Source: Moorella sp. E308F (GTDB lineage Bacteria > Bacillota > DSM-521 > Neomoorellales > Neomoorellaceae). From it: a stretch of DNA of 64,000 nt. Location of the stretch: NCBI RefSeq assembly GCF_006538365.1, contig NZ_BJKN01000002.1, forward strand, positions 709,119 through 773,118. Direction: 5' to 3'. A model generated the notes under the pieces. That model saw only the letters and a program-made list of their open reading frames with translations, was not told the DNA's origin and made no database searches. Position numbers and translations under genes: made by a program. Shown one piece after another: positions 12,401-60,839 of the stretch (position 1 is the stretch's first letter; each line of letters opens with the position of its first letter).

Positions 12401-12417
12401 ATAATTTTCTTACCCCC

Positions 12418-12531
12418 CTTATCTCTCAGGGCATATGCCCTGCAGGAATTGGCACCTGTCGCCCCCGAAAAACCGGGACAGCGGGTTGCCGGGTTTCATC
12501 GGGCCAGTCCCTCCACCACTCTTGATAAGAG
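12418..12531 (-). promoter_or_regulatory. SAM-I (S-box) riboswitch
   Basis: The transcript starts with CTCTTATCAAGAG and the GGTGGAGGGACTGGCCC stretch, then GATGAAACCCGGCAACC, GGTGCCAATTCCTGC and a closing GAGAGATAAG. These are the classic conserved blocks of the S-box aptamer, in order. It binds S-adenosylmethionine and turns transcription off. It controls metY and, by position, the downstream metX-hom-thr-lysC genes. Confidence 0.96.
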
Positions 12532-27117: not shown

Positions 27118-27821
27118 CGTTCGCTGGCGGTGGCATTAACCCCATGATGGGTCTGAATTAGTTCCAGCAATTTAGCCACTACTTCTTCAACTCTCATATT
27201 GGTGGTATCAATGATGACGGCGTCGGGCGCCGGCTGCAAGGGGTCAACTTCACGCTGGCTATCCTGGGCATCCCGCCGGCGGATTTCTTCCTTTATGGTT
27301 TCCAGGTCTACCGGCCGGCCAGAAGCTATGAGTTCATGGTAACGCCGCCGCGCCCTCTCTTCCAGAGAAGCCGTCAGGAAAAACTTGTAGGGCGCTTCCG
27401 GCAGAACATTGGTTCCGATATCGCGGCCGTCCATGACCACCCGGTTGGAGGCGGCCATCTGCCGCTGTAGCTCCACCAGCCGCCGCCGCACCCCAGGGAC
27501 CCGGGCGACGGTAGACACATGGTGGGAAACAGTTTCCTGCCGGATGGCCGCGGTAATTTCCTCGCTATCGCAGTAAACCTTCACCGTGCCAGCAGCCGTA
27601 TTTTCCAGCCTGATAGTAGTTGCCTCTGCCAGGGCAACCAGTTGCCGGTCGTCGGCCAGGTCTATCCCCTGGTGCAGGGCCTTCCAGGTCAGGGCCCGGT
27701 ACATGGCCCCGGTGTCGATGTATAGATAACCCAGTTTTTGCGCCAGGAGCCTGGCTGCTGTGCTTTTACCGGCCCCGGCCGGGCCGTCGATGGCTACGTT
27801 ACCGTACAATTTATTCCTCAC
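27114..27821 (-). CDS. cmk: Cytidylate kinase
   Basis: Phosphorylates CMP and dCMP. I start it at GTG 27821 because this overlaps the aroA stop (GTGA), has GGGAAG upstream, and puts the P-loop AIDGPAGAGKSTAARLLA near residue 10, as in the family; the open frame upstream only overlaps aroA. Other marks are YIDTGAMYRALTWKA near 34, VVMDGRDIGTNVLP near 127 and RRRDAQDSQREVDPL near 180. The length of 235 residues is normal. Coupled on both sides, to aroA and plsC. Confidence 0.95.
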   Translation of the reverse strand: MRNKLYGNVAIDGPAGAGKSTAARLLAQKLGYLYIDTGAMYRALTWKALHQGIDLADDRQLVALAEATTIRLENTAAGTVKVYCDSEEITAAIRQETVSHHVSTVARVPGVRRRLVELQRQMAASNRVVMDGRDIGTNVLPEAPYKFFLTASLEERARRRYHELIASGRPVDLETIKEEIRRRDAQDSQREVDPLQPAPDAVIIDTTNMRVEEVVAKLLELIQTHHGVNATASER

Positions 27822-29128
27822 TCTTCTTCCCTGACTTCTACCCCCAGCCGGGCCAGGTCGGCGGCAAAATGGGGGTAAGAAATGGCCATACATTCAGCGC
27901 CGTTGATTACCGTTGGCCCTTCGGCCACCAGGGCGGCTACCGCCAGGGCCATTCCCAGGCGGTGATCGCCGTGGCTGTCCACCACCGTTCCCTTTAGGCG
28001 GCCCCTTTTAACCCCTCTGATCAGGAATCCGTCGGGGCGTGCCTGGATACTGGCGCCCATTCTTTCCAGCTCGCGGGCCACCATGGTGATGCGGTCGCTC
28101 TCCTTCACCCGCAGTTCGGCTGCGTCGCGGATTACCGTTTCCCCTGCGGCCAGGGCGGCCGCCACTGCCAGGACCGGTATTTCATCAATGAGGCGGGGAA
28201 TGAGTTCGCCGCCCATCTCCACACCCCGGAGGCTGCTGGAAGTTACCTGGATATCACCGACTGGCTCGCCGCCGCTCTCGCCCCGGGGCGTTACCGTTAT
28301 TTGCCCCCCCATAGCCATTAGTACATCCAGGATGCCGGTGCGGGTGGGGTTTAAGTTCACATTTTTCAGGGTGATTGTGGCCCGGGGATGGATACACCCG
28401 GCAACCAGGAAAAAAGCCGCTGCCGAAATATCCCCAGGGATGCTGACGTTTAATGGCCGCAACGGCTTCTGGCCTGCGAGCCTGACAGCCAGCCCTTCGA
28501 CCTTGATAGCAGCCCCGGCTGCTTTAAGCAGGCGCTCACTGTGATCCCGCGAGCGGCAGGGTTCAATAATAACCGTCTCCCCGGGGGCAAAAAGGCCGGC
28601 CAGGAGCAGGGCCGATTTTACCTGGGCACTGGCCACCGGCAGGGTATAGGTAAGGGGTTGCAGGTTACCCCCCTGGATACTTAAGGGGGCCAGTTCCCCG
28701 CCCTGGCGTCCCCAGATTCTGGCCCCCATGGCGGCGAGGGGCCGGGTCACCCGGCCCATGGGCCGGCGGCGCAGGGAGGCGTCGCCGGTAATCACGCTGT
28801 AAAAGGGCTGCCCGGCCAGCACCCCCAGGAGGAGGCGCATGGTGGTACCGGAATTACCAGCATCGAGGATCGCTTCCGGCTCTTGCAAGGAACTCAACCC
28901 TTCACCGCGGACAACTACCCGGCCTTCGTGGGGGCCATTAATCTCTACTCCCAGTTCCTTAAGACATCTTAAAGTGCTGAGGCAGTCGGCTCCCTCCAGG
29001 AAACCCTCGATGACCGTTGTCCCTTCGGCGAGAGCCCCGATGATGGCTGCCCGGTGGGAAATAGATTTATCCCCCGGCGGTCTCAAACTTCCCGCCAGGG
29101 ATGGCGACGGCCTGATAATAAGCTGCAT
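27818..29128 (-). CDS. aroA: 3-phosphoshikimate 1-carboxyvinyltransferase (EPSP synthase)
   Basis: Joins shikimate 3-phosphate and phosphoenolpyruvate, the sixth step of the shikimate pathway. The 436 residues show PGDKSISHRAAIIGALAEG near residue 18, LDAGNSGTTMRLLLG near 88, SLRRRPMGRV near 115, and KVESDR-like KESDRITMVARELERMG and DSHGDHRLGMALAVAAL near the C-terminus. It lies 60 bases after tyrA on the same strand and overlaps cmk. Confidence 0.97.
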   Translation of the reverse strand: MQLIIRPSPSLAGSLRPPGDKSISHRAAIIGALAEGTTVIEGFLEGADCLSTLRCLKELGVEINGPHEGRVVVRGEGLSSLQEPEAILDAGNSGTTMRLLLGVLAGQPFYSVITGDASLRRRPMGRVTRPLAAMGARIWGRQGGELAPLSIQGGNLQPLTYTLPVASAQVKSALLLAGLFAPGETVIIEPCRSRDHSERLLKAAGAAIKVEGLAVRLAGQKPLRPLNVSIPGDISAAAFFLVAGCIHPRATITLKNVNLNPTRTGILDVLMAMGGQITVTPRGESGGEPVGDIQVTSSSLRGVEMGGELIPRLIDEIPVLAVAAALAAGETVIRDAAELRVKESDRITMVARELERMGASIQARPDGFLIRGVKRGRLKGTVVDSHGDHRLGMALAVAALVAEGPTVINGAECMAISYPHFAADLARLGVEVREEE

Positions 29129-29188
29129 TCTTTTCCTCCTGATTCCCCTTCCAAACTACCAGGAATATCTACCGGTGTCAAGCAGTTC

Positions 29189-30361
29189 CTACAACTTCCG
29201 GGCGTTAATACCCCTGCTTTGTAATATTTCCAGGGCTTTGGCGGCAGCGGCGGCTGTGGTAAAGCCCAGGCGGATGCTGCCTCCTTCCCCCTCCCGCACC
29301 CGGAGGATTTCGATGTCAATAATATTAATACCGGCATTACCCAGGGCCGTAGCCATGGCACCGATGACCCCCGGCCGGTCGGGGACGGTCACCACCAGCT
29401 CATGGAGGGCGGGCAGCAAGCCCTTTTGCCGCGCCGGCACCTGGGCCCTTAAAGAGCAGGCCTGCTGTAAAACGGCCTGCAGGTCCTCTATGTCACCCCG
29501 GGCAATCATCCCCTCCAGGGATTCCACCTGGCGGCGCCAGCATTTTAACAAAGTAAGAATAGCCTGGCGGTTGTGGAGAAAAATATCCCGCCACATGACC
29601 GGGTCGCCCGCAGCGATGCGGGTTGTATCCCGGAAACCGCCGGCAGCCAGCATCAATGTTAGGGGATGCTCCCGGGAAAGAATGCCGGCGGTTTGCATCA
29701 GGCTGACGGCTAATAGATGAGGTAAATGGCTGATCCCGGCAACCACCAGGTCGTGCTCCTCCGGGTCCATGGTTATAACCCTTGCTCCCATCACCCGGAA
29801 CAGCTCTTCCAGGCGTTGCAAGGCCCCGGCATCGGTGGCCGGTGTTGGCGTCAAAACATAGACCGCATTTTCCAGGAGATAACGGTCGGCGGCCTTGATG
29901 CCGGCCCGCTCGGAACCGGCCATGGGATGACCGCCGACATAAAAGGCCCGGGGCTGGAGAATACTTTCCAGTTCCCGGACAATGGCTCCTTTGACGCTGC
30001 CGGTATCGGTAACAACGGTCCCCGGCGCCAGGAACGGGGCGATAACCCCGGCTACCTGGCTTAAAGTGCCGACAGGTACGGCCAGGATAACCACCTCAGC
30101 CCCGGCGACTGCTTCCTCCGGGCAGGAAGCCTTGCGGTTGATGGCACCAAGTTGCATGGCCGCCTGGATGGCCTCAACCTCGCGGTCATAGCCCGCCACT
30201 TCCCGGGCCAGGCCTCCCTGCAACAGGGCCAGGCCCAGGGAACCGCCAATCAGGCCCAGGCCGATAATGGCCATCCTTTCAACCAGGGGACCGGCCCCTT
30301 TATTGCCGCTTATTTTCCCGGCCGGAGGTGCTACCGGAACCGGGTCCCGGTCTAGCTGCAA
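29189..30361 (-). CDS. tyrA: Prephenate dehydrogenase with C-terminal ACT domain
   Basis: Oxidises prephenate to 4-hydroxyphenylpyruvate for tyrosine. The nucleotide loop IIGLGLIGGSLGLALLQGG lies near residue 32, GHPMAGSERAGI near 142, and an ACT domain (about 322-390, beginning VTVPDRPGVIGAMATALG) probably mediates tyrosine inhibition. The start is TTG at 30361 with AGGGGGG eight bases upstream; this overlaps the pheA stop and leaves an N-terminal tail of about 29 residues, rich in proline, before the Rossmann fold. A start at the internal ATG is possible but has a badly spaced site. Coupled to pheA. Confidence 0.94.
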   Translation of the reverse strand: MQLDRDPVPVAPPAGKISGNKGAGPLVERMAIIGLGLIGGSLGLALLQGGLAREVAGYDREVEAIQAAMQLGAINRKASCPEEAVAGAEVVILAVPVGTLSQVAGVIAPFLAPGTVVTDTGSVKGAIVRELESILQPRAFYVGGHPMAGSERAGIKAADRYLLENAVYVLTPTPATDAGALQRLEELFRVMGARVITMDPEEHDLVVAGISHLPHLLAVSLMQTAGILSREHPLTLMLAAGGFRDTTRIAAGDPVMWRDIFLHNRQAILTLLKCWRRQVESLEGMIARGDIEDLQAVLQQACSLRAQVPARQKGLLPALHELVVTVPDRPGVIGAMATALGNAGINIIDIEILRVREGEGGSIRLGFTTAAAAAKALEILQSRGINARKL

Positions 30362-31212
30362 CTGGTTTCCCCCCTGTCCTGGGAGTAAGATCCCAGGATT
30401 TTTAATAAACCCGTCCTGGATTTCAGGCCTGCCAGCACTTCTTTTAATGGTGATGCCGTGGCTTTGCCCTCGCAGTCAATAAAGAAAAGGTATTCCCCCA
30501 GTTCCTTTTTGGTCGGACGGGATTCAATACGGGTCAAATTTATGCCGGCTTCAGCAAAATCCTTTAAAATGGCATAAAGACTTCCCGGGCGGTTGGCCAG
30601 GGCAGCCACCACCAGGGAGGTCTTGTAAGGTCCGGGGAGGGACGGTGCCTCCCGGCCCAGGACCCAGAAACGAGTCTTGTTATCCTGGTAATCCTGGATG
30701 CTTGTTGCCAGTACCGGTAGCTGGTAAAGCCTGGCGGCAAAAGCCGAAGCGATGGCCGCCAGTTCCGGCCTCTGGCGGGCCTCCCTGGCAGCCTCAGCCG
30801 TACTGGTAACCGCCTTAAGTTTTGCTCCAGGGAGGTTAGTGGCCAGGTAATGGCGGCACTGGGCCAGGGCCTGGGGGTGGGACCAGACTTCCCGGATGGC
30901 CGTCATTTCTTTTGCCCGGCCCAATAGGCAGTGGCAGACCGGCAATACTACTTCGCCGATTACCTTAAGCCCTTCTTCCTCCAGGACCAGGTCCAGGGTG
31001 AGGTTCACCGCTCCTTCGATGGAGTTTTCCACCGGTAAAATCCCTGCTCCTGCCTGGTGGTTCTGGACTGCGGCCAGGACTTCCGGGAGGCTCAGGCAGG
31101 TCAGGAAATTATCCGCCCCTGCCTGCCAGTTGCGATCTACCCGCCGTGCCCAGGCAACTGCCGCCTCATGGGAAAAAGTCCCGGGGGGCCCCAGGTAAGC
31201 TATAGCCTTCAT
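30352..31212 (-). CDS. pheA: Prephenate dehydratase
   Basis: Turns prephenate into phenylpyruvate for phenylalanine. It is the monofunctional type, 286 residues. The N-terminus reads [33 protein letters not shown] segment is near residue 60, and the [10 protein letters not shown] active-site threonine is near 178. The C-terminal ACT domain (about 195-275) carries the phenylalanine-binding [12 protein letters not shown] motif. It overlaps aroF by four bases (ATGA) and tyrA by ten, so the three genes form a tight unit. Confidence 0.95.
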
Positions 31213-32237
31213 GATACCAGATGCCCCAGTTCCCGCTCGCCGGCAGCGATTATGGGCCGGATTTCCTGTACCAGGCGGGCAAATTGCTCCGGTGTCAGGG
31301 ACTGGGGGCCGTCGGAGAGGGCTTCCTGGGGGTTGGGGTGCACCTCGATCATTAAGCCGTCGGCACCGGCAGCCAGGGCGGCCCTGGCCATGGGCGCGAC
31401 CATAAACTTGCGCCCGGTCCCGTGGCTGGGATCGACAATGACCGGCAGGTGGGATAAATGCTTTACTGCCGGTACGGCGCTCAGGTCCAGGGTATTGCGG
31501 GTGTACGTCTCAAAGGTACGAATGCCCCGCTCGCATAAGATGACATGGCTGTTACCTTCAGCGAGGATATATTCGGCGGCCAGGAGCCATTCCTCAATGG
31601 TCGCCGAGAGGCCGCGTTTCAAAAGCACCGGCTTTTGGGTGCGGCCCACGGCCTGGAGCAGGGCGAAGTTTTGCATGTTCCGGGAACCGATTTGCAGTAC
31701 ATCGGCAACCTGCGCAACTTCAGTGACCAAGGCCGGGTCCATGATCTCCGTCACCACGGGCAAACCGGTAACTTCCCGGGCTTCGGCCAGGAATTCCAGG
31801 CCTTTGGCGGCCAGGCCCTGGAAGGAGTAAGGTGAGCTGCGGGGTTTATAGGCTCCTCCCCGCAGCATGGTCGCCCCGGCCTCCCGGACGGCCATGGCGG
31901 TTTCCAGGAGCTGCTCCCGGCTCTCCACCGCGCAGGGTCCGGCGATAATCTGCACCTGGCGGCCGCCGACGGTCAAATCCCCTACAGGTACCACGGTGTC
32001 CTCGGGGTGAAAATCCCGGCCGGCCAGCTTGTAGGGCTGTAAAATGGGCACCACCTTTTCCACCCCGGGCAGGGCGGCCAGGGTTTCAGACTTCAGACGT
32101 GTCTTATCACCAATAGCACCGATTATTGTCCGTTCTACTCCCCGGGAAAGGTGTACCTTGAAACCCTCCCGTTCCAGGCGCGCTATCACCGCCTGCTGTT
32201 CCTCTGAAGTTGCTCCGGGCTCCATGATAATGATCAT
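31209..32237 (-). CDS. aroF: 3-deoxy-7-phosphoheptulonate synthase (type I-beta, with regulatory N-domain)
   Basis: First step of aromatic amino acid synthesis, condensing phosphoenolpyruvate and erythrose 4-phosphate. Residues 1-70 form a ferredoxin-like domain ([20 protein letters not shown], ending near [14 protein letters not shown]), the type that binds tyrosine or phenylalanine in related enzymes. The barrel follows with [17 protein letters not shown] near 95, [17 protein letters not shown] near 127, [12 protein letters not shown] near 183 and [16 protein letters not shown] near 262. The 342 residues fit. It has its own promoter and a leader with triplet repeats and a terminator (32238-32364) and is followed by pheA and tyrA. 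Confidence 0.96.
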
Positions 32238-32416: not shown

Positions 32417-33199
32417 TTATATAGCCTGGCGCAAACTATGCACAAGTTCTGCAGCTGCCGGCACGCCCCCTTTATGGAGCGCCTGAACAACGGCGCTGCC
32501 GACGATGATGCCGTCGCAGAGGGGAGCCAGGAGCCTGGCTTGCTCAGGATGGCTGATGCCGAATCCTACCCCCAGGGGGAGGTCCGTTGTCTCCCGTACC
32601 CTGGCGAGATACGCCGCAATCCCGGGGGGCAGGCTTTCCCTGGCCCCGGTTACCCCGGTCAGGGAAACGCAGTAGATAAAGCCCTGCGCTGCCGCGGCAA
32701 TTTGCTGCAGGCGTTCTGCCGGCGTCGTCGGCGCCACCAGGGGAATGGCCGCTAGTTTTACCGCTGCTAATTTTTCCCGCAAAGGGGCGCTTTCTTCCAG
32801 GGGCAGGTCGGGAACGATCAGGCCGTCTACCCCGGCAGCGGCCAGGTCGGCAGCCAGCGCTGCCAGGCCGTACTGGAGGAGGGGGTTGTAGTAGCTCATG
32901 AGGACCAGGGGCAGGCTCACCCGGGAGCGCAAATCCTTTACCAGGTCCAGGATCTTCCTTAAATTCGTCCCCCTGGCCAGGGCGCGGGTGCTGGCGGCCT
33001 GGATGACCGGGCCATCGGCCACGGGGTCGGAGAAGGGTACCCCCAGCTCAATGATATCAACCCCGGCTGCCGCCAGCTTCTCAACGGCTGCCGCCGTAAC
33101 CTCCAGGGAAGGATCCCCGGCACAAAGGTAGACGATTAAGGCCTTGCGCCCTTCCTTTTCCCGGGCGGCAAAGGTCGCGCTGATCCTCTCAACACCCAT
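32417..33199 (-). CDS. trpA: Tryptophan synthase alpha subunit
   Basis: Cleaves indole 3-glycerol phosphate to indole, which passes to TrpB. I start at ATG 33199 (260 residues) because AGGAGGGAGGAG precedes it and it overlaps the trpB end; the longer frame only runs into trpB. Marks are AYLCAGDP-like [11 protein letters not shown] near residue 22, [17 protein letters not shown] near 48, [12 protein letters not shown] near 102, [12 protein letters not shown] near 127 and [11 protein letters not shown] near 207. Last gene of the trp operon; a separate promoter for aroF follows. Confidence 0.96.
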
Positions 33200-34394
33200 G
33201 GTTTTCTCCTCCCTCCTGGAGCACAGCCTCCACCTGCTGGACGTCCTTATCGCCGCGGCCGGAAAGATTAACAACGATAATTTCCTCCTGTGATAACCCG
33301 GGGGCCACTTTCATGGCCAGAGCCACGGCATGGGCGCTTTCCAGGGCCGGGATGATGCCTTCGGTACGGCTCAGCAGTTGAAAGGCCTCCAGTGCCTCGG
33401 CGTCAGTAATGGCCACATAGGTGGCCCGGCCGCTGTCTTTAAGGTAGCTATGCTCCGGTCCTACGCCGGGATAATCGAGGCCGGCTGAGAGCGAGTATAC
33501 CGGCTTGATCTGGCCGTTTTCGTCCTGGACGATATAGCTGTAAGATCCCTGGAAAACGCCGGGCCGGCCGGCAGTTAACGAGGCTGCATGCCGGCCGGTA
33601 TTTAACCCTCGCCCGGCCGCTTCAGCGCCCCACAGCTTGACACCGGTGTCCTGGATAAAGGGATAAAAGATGCCCATGGCGTTACTGCCCCCCCCTACAC
33701 AGGCAATGAGGTGGTCTGGCAGGCGGCCTGTAGCCTCCAGGACCTGCTGCCGCGTTTCTGCACCGATGACGGCCTGGAAGTCCCGGACCATCATGGGGTA
33801 GGGGTGGGGACCAACAACTGAACCGATTAGATAATAGGTGGTCCGGACATTGGTAACCCAGTCCCGCAGGGCTTCATTAACGGCATCCTTTAAAGTTCGG
33901 CTGCCGGCTGCCACGGGGATTACCCTGGCCCCCAGGAGTTCCATGCGAAAGACATTCAGGGCCTGGCGGCGGGTATCTTCTTCCCCCATGTAAATTTCGC
34001 ATTCCATTCCCAGGAGGGCGGCCACGGTGGCTGTGGCCACCCCGTGCTGGCCGGCACCGGTTTCGGCAATAAGGCGTTTTTTGCCCATGCGCCGGGCGAG
34101 CAAAGCCTGGCCCAGGGCGTTATTCAGCTTGTGGGAACCGGTATGGTTAAGATCCTCGCGCTTCAGGTAAATCCGGGCCCCGCCCAGGTGCCTGGTGAGA
34201 TTGGCTGCGAAATATAGAGGTGTCGGCCGGCCGGCGTACTGCTCAAGGTAATATTTTAATTCCCTTTGAAAGGTGGGATCCTCCCTGGCCTCCCGGTATG
34301 CCTTTTCGATTTCCTTAAGGGCCGGCATGAGGGTTTCGGGTACGAAGCGCCCGCCGTAGGGACCAAAATGCCCCCGGCTGTCTGGTAATGCCAT
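33189..34394 (-). CDS. trpB: Tryptophan synthase beta subunit
   Basis: PLP enzyme that makes tryptophan from indole and serine. The 401 residues match the TrpB1 type. Motifs are [17 protein letters not shown] near the start, the PLP lysine in [17 protein letters not shown] near residue 88, [20 protein letters not shown] near 108, [16 protein letters not shown] near 232 and [12 protein letters not shown] near 378. It lies 38 bases after trpF and overlaps trpA. Confidence 0.97.
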
Positions 34395-34432: not shown

Positions 34433-35089
34433 CTAGGGGTGATGCAGTGGTGGACGGCTGACCTGCTCTTCAGCTTCCCTCACAGCCTGTAGAAATGAAA
34501 CTATTTTGGCCGGATCCTTGCGGCCGTTTGTTTCCACGCCGCTGGCGACATCGACGGCATAGGGCCGCACGGTACGGATGGCGGTGCCAACATTTTCGGG
34601 TGTCAGGCCCCCGGCCAGGATGATAGGCCGGCCCCGGGCCACGGCATCTTTGGCCAGTTCCCAGTTAAAGGTCCGGCCGCTGCCGCCGGCAACCCCCGGG
34701 ACGTAAGCATCCAGGAGGAAGCCCTGTACCTCCGGGTAATAGTCCATGGCCTGGACAAAGCTTGCATCCCGTACCCGGAAAGCTTTAATAAGTCGCTGAG
34801 AAAGCCCGCGGCAGTATTCCGGCGGCTCATCACCATGGAGCTGAAGGACATCCAGGCGGCAGAAGGTAGCTATTTCCATGAGACTGTAGCGGGGCTCATT
34901 CACGAAAACGCCTACCGTCGTGGTAAAGGGCGGCAGCTTCATTATTATCTCCCGGGCGGCTTCCGGGTTTATCTGCCTGGGGCTTCTGGCAAAGACAAAA
35001 CCAAGGGTATCGACGCCGGCGTTCAGGACCAGCCGGGCTTCTTCATAGCTCCGGATGCCGCAAATTTTTACCCTGACCATTAACGCCAC
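34433..35089 (-). CDS. trpF: Phosphoribosylanthranilate isomerase
   Basis: Isomerises N-(5-phosphoribosyl)anthranilate in tryptophan synthesis. The 218 residues form a beta/alpha barrel with VKICGIRSYEEARL at the start (catalytic cysteine), LQLHGDEPPEYC near residue 82, FLLDAYVPGVAGGSGRTFNW near 125-144, LAGGLTPENVGTAI near 157 and VDVASGVETNGRKDPAKI near 178. It follows trpC by 12 bases. Confidence 0.95.
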   Translation of the reverse strand: MALMVRVKICGIRSYEEARLVLNAGVDTLGFVFARSPRQINPEAAREIIMKLPPFTTTVGVFVNEPRYSLMEIATFCRLDVLQLHGDEPPEYCRGLSQRLIKAFRVRDASFVQAMDYYPEVQGFLLDAYVPGVAGGSGRTFNWELAKDAVARGRPIILAGGLTPENVGTAIRTVRPYAVDVASGVETNGRKDPAKIVSFLQAVREAEEQVSRPPLHHP

Positions 35090-35101: not shown

Positions 35102-35890
35102 TTAGGATAGACTCAACTCGGCAATTTTTAACTTTACATCCCCCGCTGTCATCAGGGCTTCCCCCACCAGGATGGCATCAACGCCAACCTCAGCTACCAG
35201 GGCCGCATCGGCCCGGCTCATGATCCCGCTTTCACTGACCACCACCGGCCCCGGGGGGATCAAGGGCCGTAAAGCAAGGGTGGTATGCAGGTCGACTTTA
35301 AAGGTCCGTAAATCCCGGTTGTTGATGCCGATAATCCCGGCGCCGGCCTGGAGGGCTACTTCAACTTCTGCCTCCGTATGGACTTCTACCAGGGCTCCCA
35401 GCTTAAGCTTATCCGCCAGGGCCAGGTATTCCTGCAGTTCTGCCGGCTCCAGGGCGGCAACAATTAGCAGCACAGCATCGGCACCTAAAGCCCGGGCTTC
35501 ATAAATCTGGTAGGGGTCAACAATAAAATCCTTGCGGAGCAGCGGCAGGGGGGTTACCTGCCGCACCCGGGACAGGTACTCCGGCTTACCCTTGAAGAAA
35601 CGCCAGTCTGTTAATACGGAAATGGCCGCCGCCCCGGCAGCTGTATAAAGCCGGGCCTGCTCCTCCGGGTCAAAGGCGGCCCGGATCAGGCCCCGGGAAG
35701 GTGAAGCCTGCTTTAATTCGGCAATGAGGTTCAGGCCGGCCCCCCGGCGCCGCAGGGCGGCGCGAAAATCCCCGGTCAAGGGTAGATTTTTTACCTCCCT
35801 TTCCAGTTGGGCCAGGGGCCTTTGCTCCCTGGCAACCGCCACTTCCCGGCGTTTATGGGCCAGAATCTCCGCCAGCATCAGGCAGCCCAT
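35102..35890 (-). CDS. trpC: Indole-3-glycerol phosphate synthase
   Basis: Closes the indole ring in tryptophan synthesis. Up to 262 residues. Landmarks are LIAELKQASPSRGLI near residue 56, SVLTDWRFFKGKPEYL near 88, LLRKDFIVDPYQIYEARALGADAVLLI near 113, LVEVHTEAEVEVAL near 157 and GINNRDLRTFKVD near 178. Two starts are possible: ATG 35890, and ATG 35878, which overlaps the trpD stop (TGATG) and gives MLAEILAHKRREV, the usual N-terminus. Confidence 0.95.
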   Translation of the reverse strand: MGCLMLAEILAHKRREVAVAREQRPLAQLEREVKNLPLTGDFRAALRRRGAGLNLIAELKQASPSRGLIRAAFDPEEQARLYTAAGAAAISVLTDWRFFKGKPEYLSRVRQVTPLPLLRKDFIVDPYQIYEARALGADAVLLIVAALEPAELQEYLALADKLKLGALVEVHTEAEVEVALQAGAGIIGINNRDLRTFKVDLHTTLALRPLIPPGPVVVSESGIMSRADAALVAEVGVDAILVGEALMTAGDVKLKIAELSLS

Positions 35891-36918
35891 CTTTCTATCC
35901 AGGCCGTCATATCTTGTAGTTTGGCCATGGCGGCGCCGGAATCGATACTCGTTGCCGCTGTAGCCAAAGCTCCCGGGAGGGATTTTTCTACACCCGCGGC
36001 CAGGAGGCCAAAGGCGGCATTGAGGAGAACTACGTCCCGGGCCGGGCCCTTTTCGCCCTTCAGTACGGAGCGGGTAATGGCAGCATTATCGGCTGCCGTC
36101 CCCCCGGCCAGGTCTTCTAAACCAGCCCGGGGCAGGCCGGCATCCTCGGGATAAAAGGTATAAGTGGTGAGGCTACCGTGATCCAGGCAGGTTATTTTCG
36201 TAGGTCCGGTGGTTGTGACTTCGTCCAGGCCGTCGCTGCCGTGGACCACGTAAGCCCGACGGCTCCCCAGCCGCCCCAGGACAGCGGCTACTGTTTCCGT
36301 TAAAGAAGGATCATAAACGCCTACCAGCTGGCAGGGTGCACCGGCCGGGTTGGTCAGGGGACCAAGGAGGTTAAAGACGGTGCGGATGCCGATTTCCCGG
36401 CGCGGGCCGGCGGCATACTTCATGGCACCGTGGAATACCGGGGCAAAAAGGAAGGCCATGCCCACCTCATCCAGGCAGCGTGCCACGGCTGCCGGCGGCA
36501 GGTCAACCTTGATTCCCAGGGCTTCCAGCACATCGGCGCTGCCGCAGCGGCTGGATACGGAACGATTACCGTGTTTGGCTACGGCCACCCCGGCGCCGGC
36601 AATAACGAAGGCAGCCGTGGTGGAAATGTTAAAAGTATGGCGACCGTCACCGCCGGTCCCGCAGGTGTCAATAAATACCTGGTGGCGGGTGGTGATGCCG
36701 GCAGCCCGGCGCCGCATGCTCCGGGCAAAGCCGGTGATTTCTTCTACCGTTTCACCCTTCAGGCGCAGGGCTGTAAGGAAGGCAGCTATCTGGGCCGGGG
36801 TAGCCTCGCCTGTCATGATGATATCCATTGCTTGCTCAGCTTCGGTTTCACTTAAATCCTGGCCAGCTACCACCTGGCCAATTAGGGACTTTAACACTCT
36901 GCTCCTCTCCCCTCGCAA
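35878..36918 (-). CDS. trpD: Anthranilate phosphoribosyltransferase
   Basis: Transfers phosphoribosyl from PRPP to anthranilate. The 346 residues show the family's DTCGTGGDGRHTFNISTTAAFVIAGAGVAVAKHGNRSVSS block, here from about residue 84, with the PRPP-binding GTGGDG and the NRS motif. ARRE-like AGPRREIGIRTVFNLLGPLTNPAG near 168 and VHGSDGLDE near 224 follow. It overlaps trpC and sits nine bases after trpG. Confidence 0.96.
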   Translation of the reverse strand: MRGERSRVLKSLIGQVVAGQDLSETEAEQAMDIIMTGEATPAQIAAFLTALRLKGETVEEITGFARSMRRRAAGITTRHQVFIDTCGTGGDGRHTFNISTTAAFVIAGAGVAVAKHGNRSVSSRCGSADVLEALGIKVDLPPAAVARCLDEVGMAFLFAPVFHGAMKYAAGPRREIGIRTVFNLLGPLTNPAGAPCQLVGVYDPSLTETVAAVLGRLGSRRAYVVHGSDGLDEVTTTGPTKITCLDHGSLTTYTFYPEDAGLPRAGLEDLAGGTAADNAAITRSVLKGEKGPARDVVLLNAAFGLLAAGVEKSLPGALATAATSIDSGAAMAKLQDMTAWIERWAA

Positions 36919-36926
36919 AGGATAGT

Positions 36927-37568
36927 TTAGCTGGCTTTATATTCGTTTGTTCCACTTAAGCCTTGAAGCGGAAGGGCACCAGCTTCCATGAAGGTTTGCT
37001 TAGCATATACTTCTAAAAAATTTTTCAGCAACTCTTTACCCGCCGTCGTCAGGATCGATTCCGGGTGGAACTGGACCCCTTCCACCGGCAGGTGGCGATG
37101 GCGCAAGCCCATTAATTCACCGGTTTCGCTGCGGGCTGTGACTTCCAGGCAGCCCGGCAGGGTCTCTTCTTCAACTATCAGGGAATGATAACGGGTGGCA
37201 GTGAAGGGGTTGGGTAGGTTACGATAAATAGTTTTGCCGTCGTGAGTAATAGTTGAGGTCTTGCCGTGCATCAGCCTCCCGGCCCGGACTACCCGGCCGC
37301 CAAAGGCCTGGGCTATACTCTGGTGTCCCAGGCAAACCCCCAGGATGGGGATTTTCCCGGCAAAGGCGGTTATGGCCGCCAGGGAGATACCAGCTTCATT
37401 GGGCGTACAGGGACCAGGAGAAAAGACCAGGTAATCAGGCTGCAGGGCAGCAATTTCTTCCAGGGTAATGGCGTCATTACGCCGCACCACCACCTCCTGT
37501 CCCAGTTCCAGGAAATACTGGACCAGGTTATAGGTAAAAGAGTCGTAGTTATCGATCATTAGCAGCAT
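36927..37568 (-). CDS. trpG: Anthranilate synthase glutamine amidotransferase subunit
   Basis: Releases ammonia from glutamine for TrpE. Class I amidotransferase of 213 residues. The N-terminus is [16 protein letters not shown]. The oxyanion loop is [13 protein letters not shown] near residue 50, the catalytic cysteine is in [15 protein letters not shown] near 79, and the histidine-glutamate pair is in [10 protein letters not shown] near 170. It may also serve 4-amino-4-deoxychorismate synthesis, as in Bacillus; that cannot be seen here. It overlaps the end of trpE by 20 bases. Confidence 0.95.
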
Positions 37569-39033
37569 AATTCTCTTCCCCCCTGGTATTCAGCACTTGA
37601 AGCAGAGCCCGGGCTTTATTCAAGGTTTCTTCATATTCACCCGCCGGGTCGGAATCGGCAACTATACCGGCACCGGCCTGGACAAAGGCCTGCCCCCGGG
37701 TAAAAGTAATGGTCCGGATGGCGATGCAGGTATCAAGGTTGCCGTGGAGGCCGAGATACCCCACGGCACCGGCATAAGGTCCTCGCGCCGTTGGCTCCAG
37801 TTCGGCAATGATCTCCATGGCCCGCACCTTCGGTGCCCCGGTTACCGTACCCGCAGGGAAACAGGCGAGTAAAGCGTCCAGGGCGTCCTTGCCCGGCGCC
37901 AGGCGGGCAGTAATACGGGAAACCAGGTGCATGACGTGGGAATAATATTCAACTACCATCTGCCGGGGTACCTGGATACTTCCGGGAGCTGCCACCCGGC
38001 CGATGTCGTTGCGACCCAGGTCCAGGAGCATTAGATGTTCGGCTCGCTCCTTTTCACTGGCCAGGAGTTCTCTAGTTAACTCCTGGTCCTCCCGGGGAGT
38101 CCGGCCCCGGGGCCTGGTGCCGGCAATAGGACTGTAGTCAATCTTCCCCCCTTCTACCCTGACCAGCATTTCCGGGGAGGCCCCCACCAGTTTTACTTCC
38201 GGCAGGTTCAGGTAAAACATATAAGGAGAAGGATTAAGGGTGCGCAGCCGCCGGTAAACAGCCAGGGTATCGCCGGTAAAGGGCAGGCTCAAGCGCTGGG
38301 AGAGGACGACCTGGAAGATATCCCCGGCAGCGATATATTCCTTGGCTTTTTTTACTCCCTGGATAAATTCCCGCCGGGTTACATTGGCCTGCCAAGATCC
38401 GGCAGTAAAGGGAAGGTTTCTGTCCTGCCGGCACGTTTTTACCGGCCTATCAAAAGCCTGCAAGAGGCGTCGGACTGCGGCTACGGCATCTTCATAGCCC
38501 GCTGCCGCCTCTTCCCCGCCCCGGCCCAGGTAACCCACCCGTACCGTTCGCAAGATGTGGTCATAGATGAGAAACACCCGGTGGAGGGTTAGATAAGTAT
38601 CCGGCAGTTGCAGGTCATCCACGGCGTGGCCGGGTAAGCTCTCTATTTCCCGGGCCAGGTCGTAACCCAGGTAACCCACCAATCCCCCGCAAAAACGAGG
38701 CCCAACAACTGGCGGTAGGGATAATTGCGCCATTAACCTGCGTAAAGCCGCCACCGGCTTTTCTGGGAGAAGCTCAGTTTGTCCTCGGGCAGTTAAATAA
38801 GCTTTCCCTGCCCGGATTTTAAAAGTCAGCAAGGGATCAAAGCCGATCAGGGAGTAGCGGCCCAGCCTCTCCCCGCCCTCAACACTTTCCAGTAAAAAGC
38901 TGTCCGGTTTGTTGGCCAATCTTAAGTACAGGGAAATGGGAGTTTCGGTATCGGCCAGGACTTCGGCCCAGACGGGAACATAGGGGACCTTTTGGGCCAG
39001 ATCCAGATAGGTTTGCCGGTCAGGCTGGATCAC
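37549..39033 (-). CDS. trpE: Anthranilate synthase component I
   Basis: Makes anthranilate from chorismate, the committed step to tryptophan. I start at GTG 39033 (494 residues) because GGGGAGGAGAGA lies just upstream; the frame upstream of it reads through the attenuator terminator. Near residue 48 [19 protein letters not shown] contains the LLES element that binds feedback tryptophan. The catalytic domain has [50 protein letters not shown] and [19 protein letters not shown]. It is the first gene of trpEGDCFBA, behind a TRAP-like leader. Confidence 0.97.
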
Positions 39034-39056: not shown

Positions 39057-39122
39057 AAAATAAAAACCAGCGCTCAAGTGAGCCCTGGTCCGGCATACTC
39101 TCCCATGCTCTACTCCAGGCTC
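39057..39122 (-). terminator. Attenuator (terminator and antiterminator) in the trpE leader
   Basis: Terminator: ACCAG-G-GCTC, loop ACTT, GAGC-G-CTGGT (39089-39066), then TTTTATTTTG. Antiterminator: GAGCCTGG (39122-39115) can pair with CCAGGGCTC (39088-39080) with one bulge. The two share CCAGGGCTC and so exclude each other. The 5' arm of the antiterminator contains two of the GAG triplets, so a bound TRAP ring would favour termination. Confidence 0.85.
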
Positions 39123-39153
39123 ATCTCCAACTCCACTCAGCTCAACTCAGCTA
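39100..39153 (-). promoter_or_regulatory. TRAP-like binding site (GAG/UAG repeats), trpE leader
   Basis: Read 5' to 3' on the transcript: UAG at 39153-39151, then GAG at 39148, 39143, 39138, 39133, 39127, 39122, 39115 and 39110, nearly all spaced by two to four bases, and one more GAG at 39102. That is nine or ten triplets against eleven in the Bacillus trp leader. The TRAP protein (MtrB) wraps such RNA when tryptophan is plentiful. Its gene is not in this window. Confidence 0.85.
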
Positions 39154-39172
39154 TATTCAGTTTGTTGCTAAC

Positions 39173-39202
39173 AGCATACCATGGATAGTAAATAGTTGTC
39201 AA
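39173..39202 (-). promoter_or_regulatory. Promoter of the trp operon
   Basis: TTGACA (39202-39197) and TATGCT (39178-39173) with an 18-base spacer, just after aroH. The transcript would start near 39166, placing the GAG/UAG repeats from about base 13 onward. Confidence 0.7.
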
Positions 39203-39216
39203 TAGTTTTGTTTTCG

Positions 39217-39624
39217 CTAACGTAAATCCGGGCGTAATTGTGCTGCCCGGCCCAGATAAACGTGGACCGGTTCCCGATCGCTATAAGCATGGATTAAAAC
39301 GCGGACAATCCCTGGCAGGCTTCCCGGTACCGGTATTTCGGTAGCGCACATTAAGGCTACTTCCTGCCAGCCCAGGCGCCGGGCAGCCTCGGCCGGGAAA
39401 GCCGCATTGAGATCCGGCGTCACCGTAAAAATGGCGCTGATAATGTCTTCTACGGCCAGCCCGTTCCGGCCCATCATTTCCCGGAGCAAACCTTCAGTTG
39501 CCGTAAGAATGGCGGCGGCCGTATTCTCCGGCACTTCAACGGCCCCGCGTAAGCCCCGTACTTTTGTACCCCCGGATTCCCGTTTGCGTCCGGTTCCGGG
39601 TAAACCCTGAATTTTTTCTTCCAT
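39217..39624 (-). CDS. aroH: Chorismate mutase, AroH type
   Basis: Converts chorismate to prephenate, feeding PheA and TyrA. It belongs to the AroH fold found in Bacillus: VRGLRGAVEVPENTA near residue 22, SAIFTVTPDLNAAFPAEAARRLGW near 63-86, CATEIPVPGSLPGIVRVLIH near 93-112 and HVYLGRAAQLRPDL at the end, with the conserved arginines of the active site. The 135 residues include about 20 extra N-terminal residues, supported by AGGGGGG before ATG 39624. It follows the HutP-family gene by 54 bases, and that gap contains NAG triplets overlapping its ribosome site. Confidence 0.93.
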   Translation of the reverse strand: MEEKIQGLPGTGRKRESGGTKVRGLRGAVEVPENTAAAILTATEGLLREMMGRNGLAVEDIISAIFTVTPDLNAAFPAEAARRLGWQEVALMCATEIPVPGSLPGIVRVLIHAYSDREPVHVYLGRAAQLRPDLR

Positions 39625-52963: not shown

Positions 52964-53941
52964 TTACACTCCCATGGCCTCCCGGACCATGGCCATAGTC
53001 CGGCCCGCCGTGGCCCTGGCTTTTGCGGCTCCGGCTGCCAGGATCTCATCAACCAGCTCCGGCCGCGCCGCCCAACGGGCCCGGCGCTCCCGGACTGGTT
53101 CCAGGAAGGCGTTTATTTTTTCCGCCAGGCGTTTTTTGCAGGGGACACAGCCAATGCGGCCGCCCCGGCAGCTGACCCGCGTCTCTTCAATTTCTTCACC
53201 ATTATAAATCTCGTGGTAGCGGTGGACCAGGCATACTTCCGGGTGCCCGGGATCGGTTTTGTGAATCCGGGCCGGGTCGGTAACCATAAGCCGGACCCTT
53301 TCCCACACCTCTTCCGGTGCAGCCGACATGGGAATGTCATTGTGATAGCTTTTACTCATCTTGCGGCCGTCAATGCCGGGTAACATGGCGACTTTAGCTA
53401 ACAGGGCCTGGGGCTCGGGGAAAAGGGAAGTTTTATACAGGTAGTTAAACCGGCGCGCCACTTCCCGGCAGAACTCCAGATGGGGCAACTGGTCTTCGCC
53501 CACCGGGACGCCGTCGGCCAGGTAGATAAGGATATCAGCGGCCATCAGGAGGGGATAGCCCAAAAAACCATAGGTTGACACGTCCTTACCCTCTTTACCC
53601 AGCTGCTGGATCTGATCCTTGTAGGTGGGGACGCGTTCCAGCCAGGACAAGGGGGTGAACATGGAAAAGAGCAGATGGAGCTCGGCATGTTCCTTGACAT
53701 GGGACTGGACGAAGATGGTGCTGCGCTCGGGGTCTAATCCGGCGCCCAACCAGTCAAGGAGCATGGCGCGGATATTCTCCTGCAGCTCTGCGGTATTGTC
53801 ATAACCTGTAGTCAGGGCGTGCCAGTCGGAAATAAAGTAAAAGCATTCGTTTTCTTCCTGCAGGCGCACCCAATTTTCCAGCACGCTCAGGTGGCCGATA
53901 TGCAGCCGCCCCGTGGGTCGCATGCCGCTCAAAATACGCAT
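52964..53941 (-). CDS. trpS: Tryptophanyl-tRNA synthetase
   Basis: Charges tRNA(Trp). Class I synthetase of 325 residues. HIGH-type motif GRLHIGHLSVLENW near residue 11, KMSKSYHNDIP near 192. A GCVPCKKRLAEKINAFL segment near 268 precedes the C-terminal helix. I prefer ATG 53941 (MRILSGMRPTGRLHIGH) since AGGAG is 11 bases upstream; GTG at 53953 adds four residues. No T-box leader precedes it: the next gene is 8 bases upstream of that GTG on the same strand. Confidence 0.96.
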   Translation of the reverse strand: MRILSGMRPTGRLHIGHLSVLENWVRLQEENECFYFISDWHALTTGYDNTAELQENIRAMLLDWLGAGLDPERSTIFVQSHVKEHAELHLLFSMFTPLSWLERVPTYKDQIQQLGKEGKDVSTYGFLGYPLLMAADILIYLADGVPVGEDQLPHLEFCREVARRFNYLYKTSLFPEPQALLAKVAMLPGIDGRKMSKSYHNDIPMSAAPEEVWERVRLMVTDPARIHKTDPGHPEVCLVHRYHEIYNGEEIEETRVSCRGGRIGCVPCKKRLAEKINAFLEPVRERRARWAARPELVDEILAAGAAKARATAGRTMAMVREAMGV

Positions 53942-53961
53942 TCTATGAAACACTCCTCTAC

Positions 53962-60656: not shown

Positions 60657-60686
60657 AAATATGATATAATTAATTTGTATATCCTG

Positions 60687-60820
60687 GAACGCTGAATTGC
60701 GGTGCAACAGCCGTAAGCGGGGGACCCATTTTTCCGGGGTGAATCTTGCCGGTTAATTCCGGTGAGTAGGGCTAACCTTCAGCCCGAATCCGTCAGCTAA
60801 CTTCGTAAGCGTGGAAGGGG
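60687..60820 (+). promoter_or_regulatory. c-di-AMP (ydaO/yuaA) riboswitch
   Basis: The leader has the conserved blocks of the ydaO class in order: CGCTGAATTGCGG, GCAACAGCC, GGGGGACCCA, GGGGTGAATC, a variable stem, CCCGAATCCGTCAGCTAAC and CGTAAGCGTGGAAGG. This class binds cyclic di-AMP and usually turns off genes for cell-wall and osmolyte functions. It fills most of the 383-base gap between the debranching-enzyme gene and otsA. Confidence 0.96.
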
Positions 60821-60839
60821 ATATATCGATACTTACATA

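Follow-up and report, generated by a model that had tools for sequence, protein, structure and literature searches.

Introduction

In B. subtilis, the trp RNA-binding attenuation protein TRAP regulates trpE by transcription attenuation and by sequestration of the Shine-Dalgarno (SD) sequence (PMC11255114), and it blocks ribosome binding at trpG, trpP and ycbK (PMC11255114, PMC3971595). The trp leader of this organism has 11 repeats, with an antiterminator from +60 to +111 and a terminator from +108 to +133 (PMC4027176). Other Firmicutes control the same operon with a Trp T-box, a structured RNA that senses the charging of tRNA-Trp. In the openly accessible literature we searched, we found no report on TRAP in Moorella, and the trp leader may possibly be covered already in comparative papers of 2005-2008.

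Here we describe the trp leader of Moorella sp. E308F. Like the attenuator of the B. subtilis trpEDCFBA operon, it combines a (G/U)AG tract with overlapping antiterminator and terminator hairpins in a genome that encodes TRAP, and it lacks a Trp T-box. Its sequence and that of its relatives make it very probably a TRAP-dependent transcription attenuator.

Results

The window, the whole 64,000-nucleotide stretch C2:709119-773118, comes from a genome of 3.06 Mb in 10 contigs. The trp operon lies on its minus strand. The SD sequence GGGGAGGAG at 39048-39040 makes the GTG at 39033 the probable start of trpE (37549-39033); an ATG-initiated trpE reading frame at 39096 would begin within the leader. 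Downstream stand trpG (36927-37568), trpD (35878-36918), trpC (35102-35890), trpF (34433-35089), trpB (33189-34394) and trpA (32417-33274). Of these, trpD, trpC and trpF were named from their translations rather than by family search, as was trpA by translation, with a real start probably further in. Unlike in B. subtilis, trpG is within the trp operon, where it encodes the sole TrpG/PabA-type amidotransferase found in the genome. Beyond trpA, and oriented like it, lie DAHP synthase, pheA-like, tyrA-like and aroA-like genes (27818-32237), the whole perhaps being one aromatic supraoperon. A second DAHP synthase gene, elsewhere in the genome, is preceded by an apparently Phe-type T-box (L003). 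On the other side, an aroH-like gene (39217-39624) stands just ahead of the leader.

A sigma-70-type promoter, TTGACA-18-TATGCT with a TG extension, lies at 39173-39202 on the minus strand. The near-consensus promoter described in an earlier sequence-only reading of this DNA is therefore borne out, with 10 of 12 consensus positions matched against 0.4 expected in shuffles of the same region. The predicted TRAP binding tract (39100-39153, minus strand) consists of one UAG followed by nine GAG triplets, separated by spacers of 2, 2, 2, 2, 3, 2, 4, 2 and 5 nt. The earlier reading had counted nine or ten GAG/UAG triplets, almost all GAG, at a spacing of two to four bases. Both the count and the composition hold, and only the last spacer falls outside that range. 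A TRAP attenuator should have roughly 9-11 (G/U)AG triplets, mostly 2-3 nt apart; the tract has ten, with spacers of 2-5 nt. B. subtilis has 11 repeats, and its tract has more UAG.

To gauge chance, we compared the tract with simulated sequences. In 64-kb simulations, KAG chains reached at most 5 triplets in 40 order-1 Markov sequences and at most 4 in 40 order-2 Markov sequences. Among 2000 sequences built from the leader's own dinucleotides, a chain of 9 arose once and a chain of 10 never. An exact match to five triplets at a spacing of 2 occurred only in the trp leader when the whole genome was searched. These data indicate that the ten-triplet tract is far beyond chance.

The sequence-only reading had made its TRAP interpretation depend on an mtrB homologue, and the genome has one clear mtrB gene (G000:C1:52921-53121; PF02081, E 2.7e-39). 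Its product passes the NCBIfam MtrB equivalog model (136.7 bits, where the cut-off is 117), matches solved TRAP structures along nearly its whole length, and is 64% identical to B. subtilis TRAP. Among the matches listed, its nearest relatives come from Moorella sulfitireducens, M. mulderi, M. stamsii and M. thermoacetica. K40, K59 and R61 are invariant among five aligned TRAPs, as is much of the central stretch. We take these residues to be the counterparts of K37, K56 and R58, the RNA-contact residues of B. subtilis TRAP, and on this assignment the RNA-contacting residues are kept. Unlike in B. subtilis, mtrB does not stand with mtrA; a coaD-like gene flanks it on one side, and a small gene ahead of a pfkA-like gene flanks it on the other. 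A further difference from B. subtilis concerns anti-TRAP (rtpA), which the earlier reading had also proposed to look for and which was not found in the genome. The sole PF15777 match fell below the cut-off within a 384-codon frame, and a DnaJ zinc finger is its likely source.

The leader might instead answer to a leader peptide, a T-box or another RNA-binding protein, with the GAG tract incidental. We found nothing that favours this explanation. Neither the trpE leader nor the pabB leader described below matched an Rfam family. The earlier reading had seen no T-box and no leader peptide with Trp codons, and we likewise found no such leader reading frame and, by Rfam search, no T-box anywhere in the window, which holds both the trp operon and trpS (about 52970-53944). 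Six T-boxes elsewhere in the genome precede genes for DAHP synthase, a serine-pathway-like aminotransferase and an aminotransferase-containing operon, as well as cysS, thrS and pheS; these genes were judged from the downstream translations, and none is a Trp gene by inspection. Rfam also marks a c-di-AMP riboswitch (60680-60826, plus strand) and a SAM riboswitch (12416-12531, minus strand) in the window. Because the tract is conserved and the genome encodes mtrB, we regard an incidental tract as the least probable explanation, and a very remote one.

An intrinsic terminator lies between the tract and trpE on the minus strand (39057-39089 with its U-run; hairpin 39089-39066), reading ACCAGGGCUC-ACUU-GAGCGCUGGU-UUUUAUUUU. 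In an alternative pairing, UGAGCCUGG (39123-39115, minus strand), which overlaps triplet 7, would pair with CCAGGGCUCA (39088-39079, minus strand) and so use the 5' arm of the terminator. This shared arm and the predicted folding support the mutually exclusive antiterminator and terminator hairpins proposed earlier, and an antiterminator overlapping the tract together with a terminator is predicted in most orthologues. For nearly every one of 19 orthologues, nascent RNA lacking the 3' arm is predicted to have its 5' arm mostly paired with upstream sequence, and when the tract is kept single-stranded in the prediction, the terminator folds in most of them. One orthologue, L030, shows little predicted pairing of the arm to the triplets.

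Covariation distinguishes the two helices. In the orthologue alignment, the terminator helix is paired in 99.3% of cells and has 8 double-changed cells (0/500 shuffles). The antiterminator pairs in 89.6% of cells and shows no covariation beyond shuffles. This is expected if one of its arms must keep GAG for TRAP. Exchanging tracts and arms between species gave no own-species advantage (own and cross means both -13.6 kcal/mol), since an arm that bears CUC can pair with any GAG tract, and a species' own tract-arm pairing was only modestly stronger than that of shuffled tracts. The predicted antiterminator therefore draws its support from folding and analogy, not from covariation.

TRAP could also bind the tract and act mainly on trpE translation or mRNA stability, with the hairpin being a weak terminator. 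In read-through transcripts of B. subtilis, the action of TRAP also causes the trpE SD sequence to be sequestered (PMC11255114), and here a strong hairpin is predicted between 39030 and 39075 (-15.9 kcal/mol), in which the SD of trpE pairs with the 3' arm of the terminator and its U-run. However, this hairpin needs the terminator 3' arm and would form in the TRAP-free, read-through state, which is the wrong sign for a repression device. In addition, the SD region differs by eye in relatives such as L014 and L015, whereas the trp terminator is strong (predicted at -17 kcal/mol) and conserved. We consider control mainly through translation or stability to be quite improbable, and transcription attenuation by TRAP is the reading we carry forward.

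If the leader is controlled by TRAP, the tract and mtrB should be found together. A tract followed by a terminator precedes trpE in 10/10 further genomes that we examined from the genus, and it recurs in several other families. Among 29 relatives with a readable trpE, genomes with and without mtrB stood at 21:1 where the tract was present, against 3:4 where it was not (p = 0.007). The one genome with a tract and no mtrB comes from an assembly that is 58% complete. G012 was counted as tract-less because its match started within the gene, although it does carry a tract. In two relatives, mtrB lies close upstream of trpE (G040:C7:49982-50182 and G033:C85:64100-64297). A T-box core precedes trpE in five genomes, four of which lack mtrB, and in three of those four the specifier is UGG. 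Overall, 29 of the 41 genomes searched encode mtrB, and among the genomes represented in the best 80 mtrB loci listed are those of Moorella, Heliobacterium, Pelotomaculum and Thermincola as well as Desulfotomaculum-like ones. In this branch of the Firmicutes, TRAP thus commonly takes the place of the Trp T-box. The sequence-only reading had seen B. subtilis logic in a clostridial genome where a T-box might be expected; mtrB and the conservation of the leader uphold the mechanism, but the frequency of mtrB removes the surprise.

To look for further targets, we searched the genome for the triplet pattern. Allowing two mismatches, we obtained 40 matches compared with 50 for a backward control, so a match to the pattern is no evidence by itself. 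What supports the added targets is their chain length, terminator, gene identity and conservation. Among the 30 loci with at most two mismatches, the trp leader, L045 and L046 alone combined a chain of at least 7 with a terminator. L040 and L053 were set aside as lying within coding sequence, having a short chain or lacking gene logic. Counts of KAG triplets next to terminators come from a biased sample, which included loci picked for the pattern. A shorter chain with a terminator lies ahead of iorA (L054). At trpP-ecf, pabB-pabC and iorA alike, a triplet tract and terminator are conserved in relatives, and the terminator stands between the tract and the gene.

L045 precedes a gene for a 184-aa TrpP-family protein (PF17099, E 3e-9), followed by two ECF-type ABC ATPase genes (family test on the first) and a transmembrane gene. 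The tract and terminator (L182:820-935; L227, G000:C1:300428 onward) are conserved in the genus: 11 loci, drawn from it and a neighbour, have 8-12 KAG per 95 nt, where the background averages 1.6. trpP is a probable TRAP target.

L046 (L046:1500-1592; G000:C1 about 316990-317085) is a KAG-rich leader with a terminator ahead of a gene whose chorismate-binding product scores above the cut-off for pabB but below that for trpE. The next gene encodes a class IV aminotransferase and is pabC by context. Eight genomes, one from another genus, have 7-12 KAG and a terminator at this position. The leader also holds a strictly conserved string, GAGACGACTCGGAGCTTTTGGGGTGAGGACCAGC. pabB is a likely target, weaker than the others because its spacing is looser (up to 10 nt). 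The only TrpG/PabA-type amidotransferase gene in the genome is the one inside the trp operon; two weaker matches look like CarA and GuaA by length. In relatives where pabA adjoins pabB, no such KAG leader was seen at pabB.

The product of iorA was identified as indolepyruvate:ferredoxin oxidoreductase (TIGR03336, E 1.8e-79, over the N-terminal 153 residues). Most relatives in the genus have KAG-rich iorA leaders, one with a chain of 11. Eight close iorA orthologues from other families of the phylum have 7-12 KAG per 95 nt, with a terminator called by script in 6/8. Across several families, iorA tracts occur at L228, L233, L237 and L246-L252, mostly with a terminator. At L252, from G093, mtrB is directly upstream of iorA, and GAG triplets lie at and past the mtrB end. 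G024, which lacks mtrB, has an Rfam T-box before iorA with a UGG specifier (L239:2023-2301), and some iorA orthologues carry neither tract nor T-box. iorA is a probable TRAP target and, if so, one common to several families.

Discussion

The promoter, tract, terminator, mutually exclusive pairings, mtrB and conservation are all seen at the sequence level. The attenuator reading follows from the tract, mtrB in the same genome, the conserved leader, the terminator helix, the co-occurrence of tract and mtrB, and the T-box in TRAP-less relatives. We infer TRAP binding, tryptophan dependence and the termination response as follows. Transcription would start near 39166. When tryptophan is scarce, TRAP would be inactive, and the GAG tract would pair with the terminator 5' arm, allowing readthrough into trpEGDCFBA. 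With abundant tryptophan, the ten triplets would wrap around the tryptophan-loaded TRAP ring and the antiterminator would be blocked. The terminator would then fold and transcription would end ahead of trpE.

We think it reasonably likely that at least four operons (trp, trpP-ecf, pabB-pabC and iorA) form a TRAP regulon, all of them controlled by transcription attenuation, with pabB and iorA as new targets. As with trpG, trpP and ycbK in B. subtilis, the candidate sites lie at Trp-related genes, including one for a TrpP-family transporter. Unlike those translational targets, the Moorella trpP, pabB and iorA sites look like transcription attenuators because a terminator stands between the tract and the gene. 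Compared with Bacillus, the targets are wired differently and the mechanism is not new. If pabB is under TRAP control, the link between p-aminobenzoate synthesis and tryptophan would run opposite to that in Bacillus, since the only TrpG of Moorella sits in the trp operon while Bacillus trpG is in the folate operon.

Taken alone, the trp leader is ordinary in kind, a clean further example of a classic mechanism. Its wider value is that, within one genome, TRAP seems to serve generally as a tryptophan-responsive attenuator, acting on uptake, folate and indolepyruvate metabolism. At trpE and iorA, the TRAP tract and the Trp T-box appear to be naturally swapped among relatives, the iorA T-box being that of a single TRAP-less genome. 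The evolution and size of the TRAP regulon outside Bacillus thus become directly testable.
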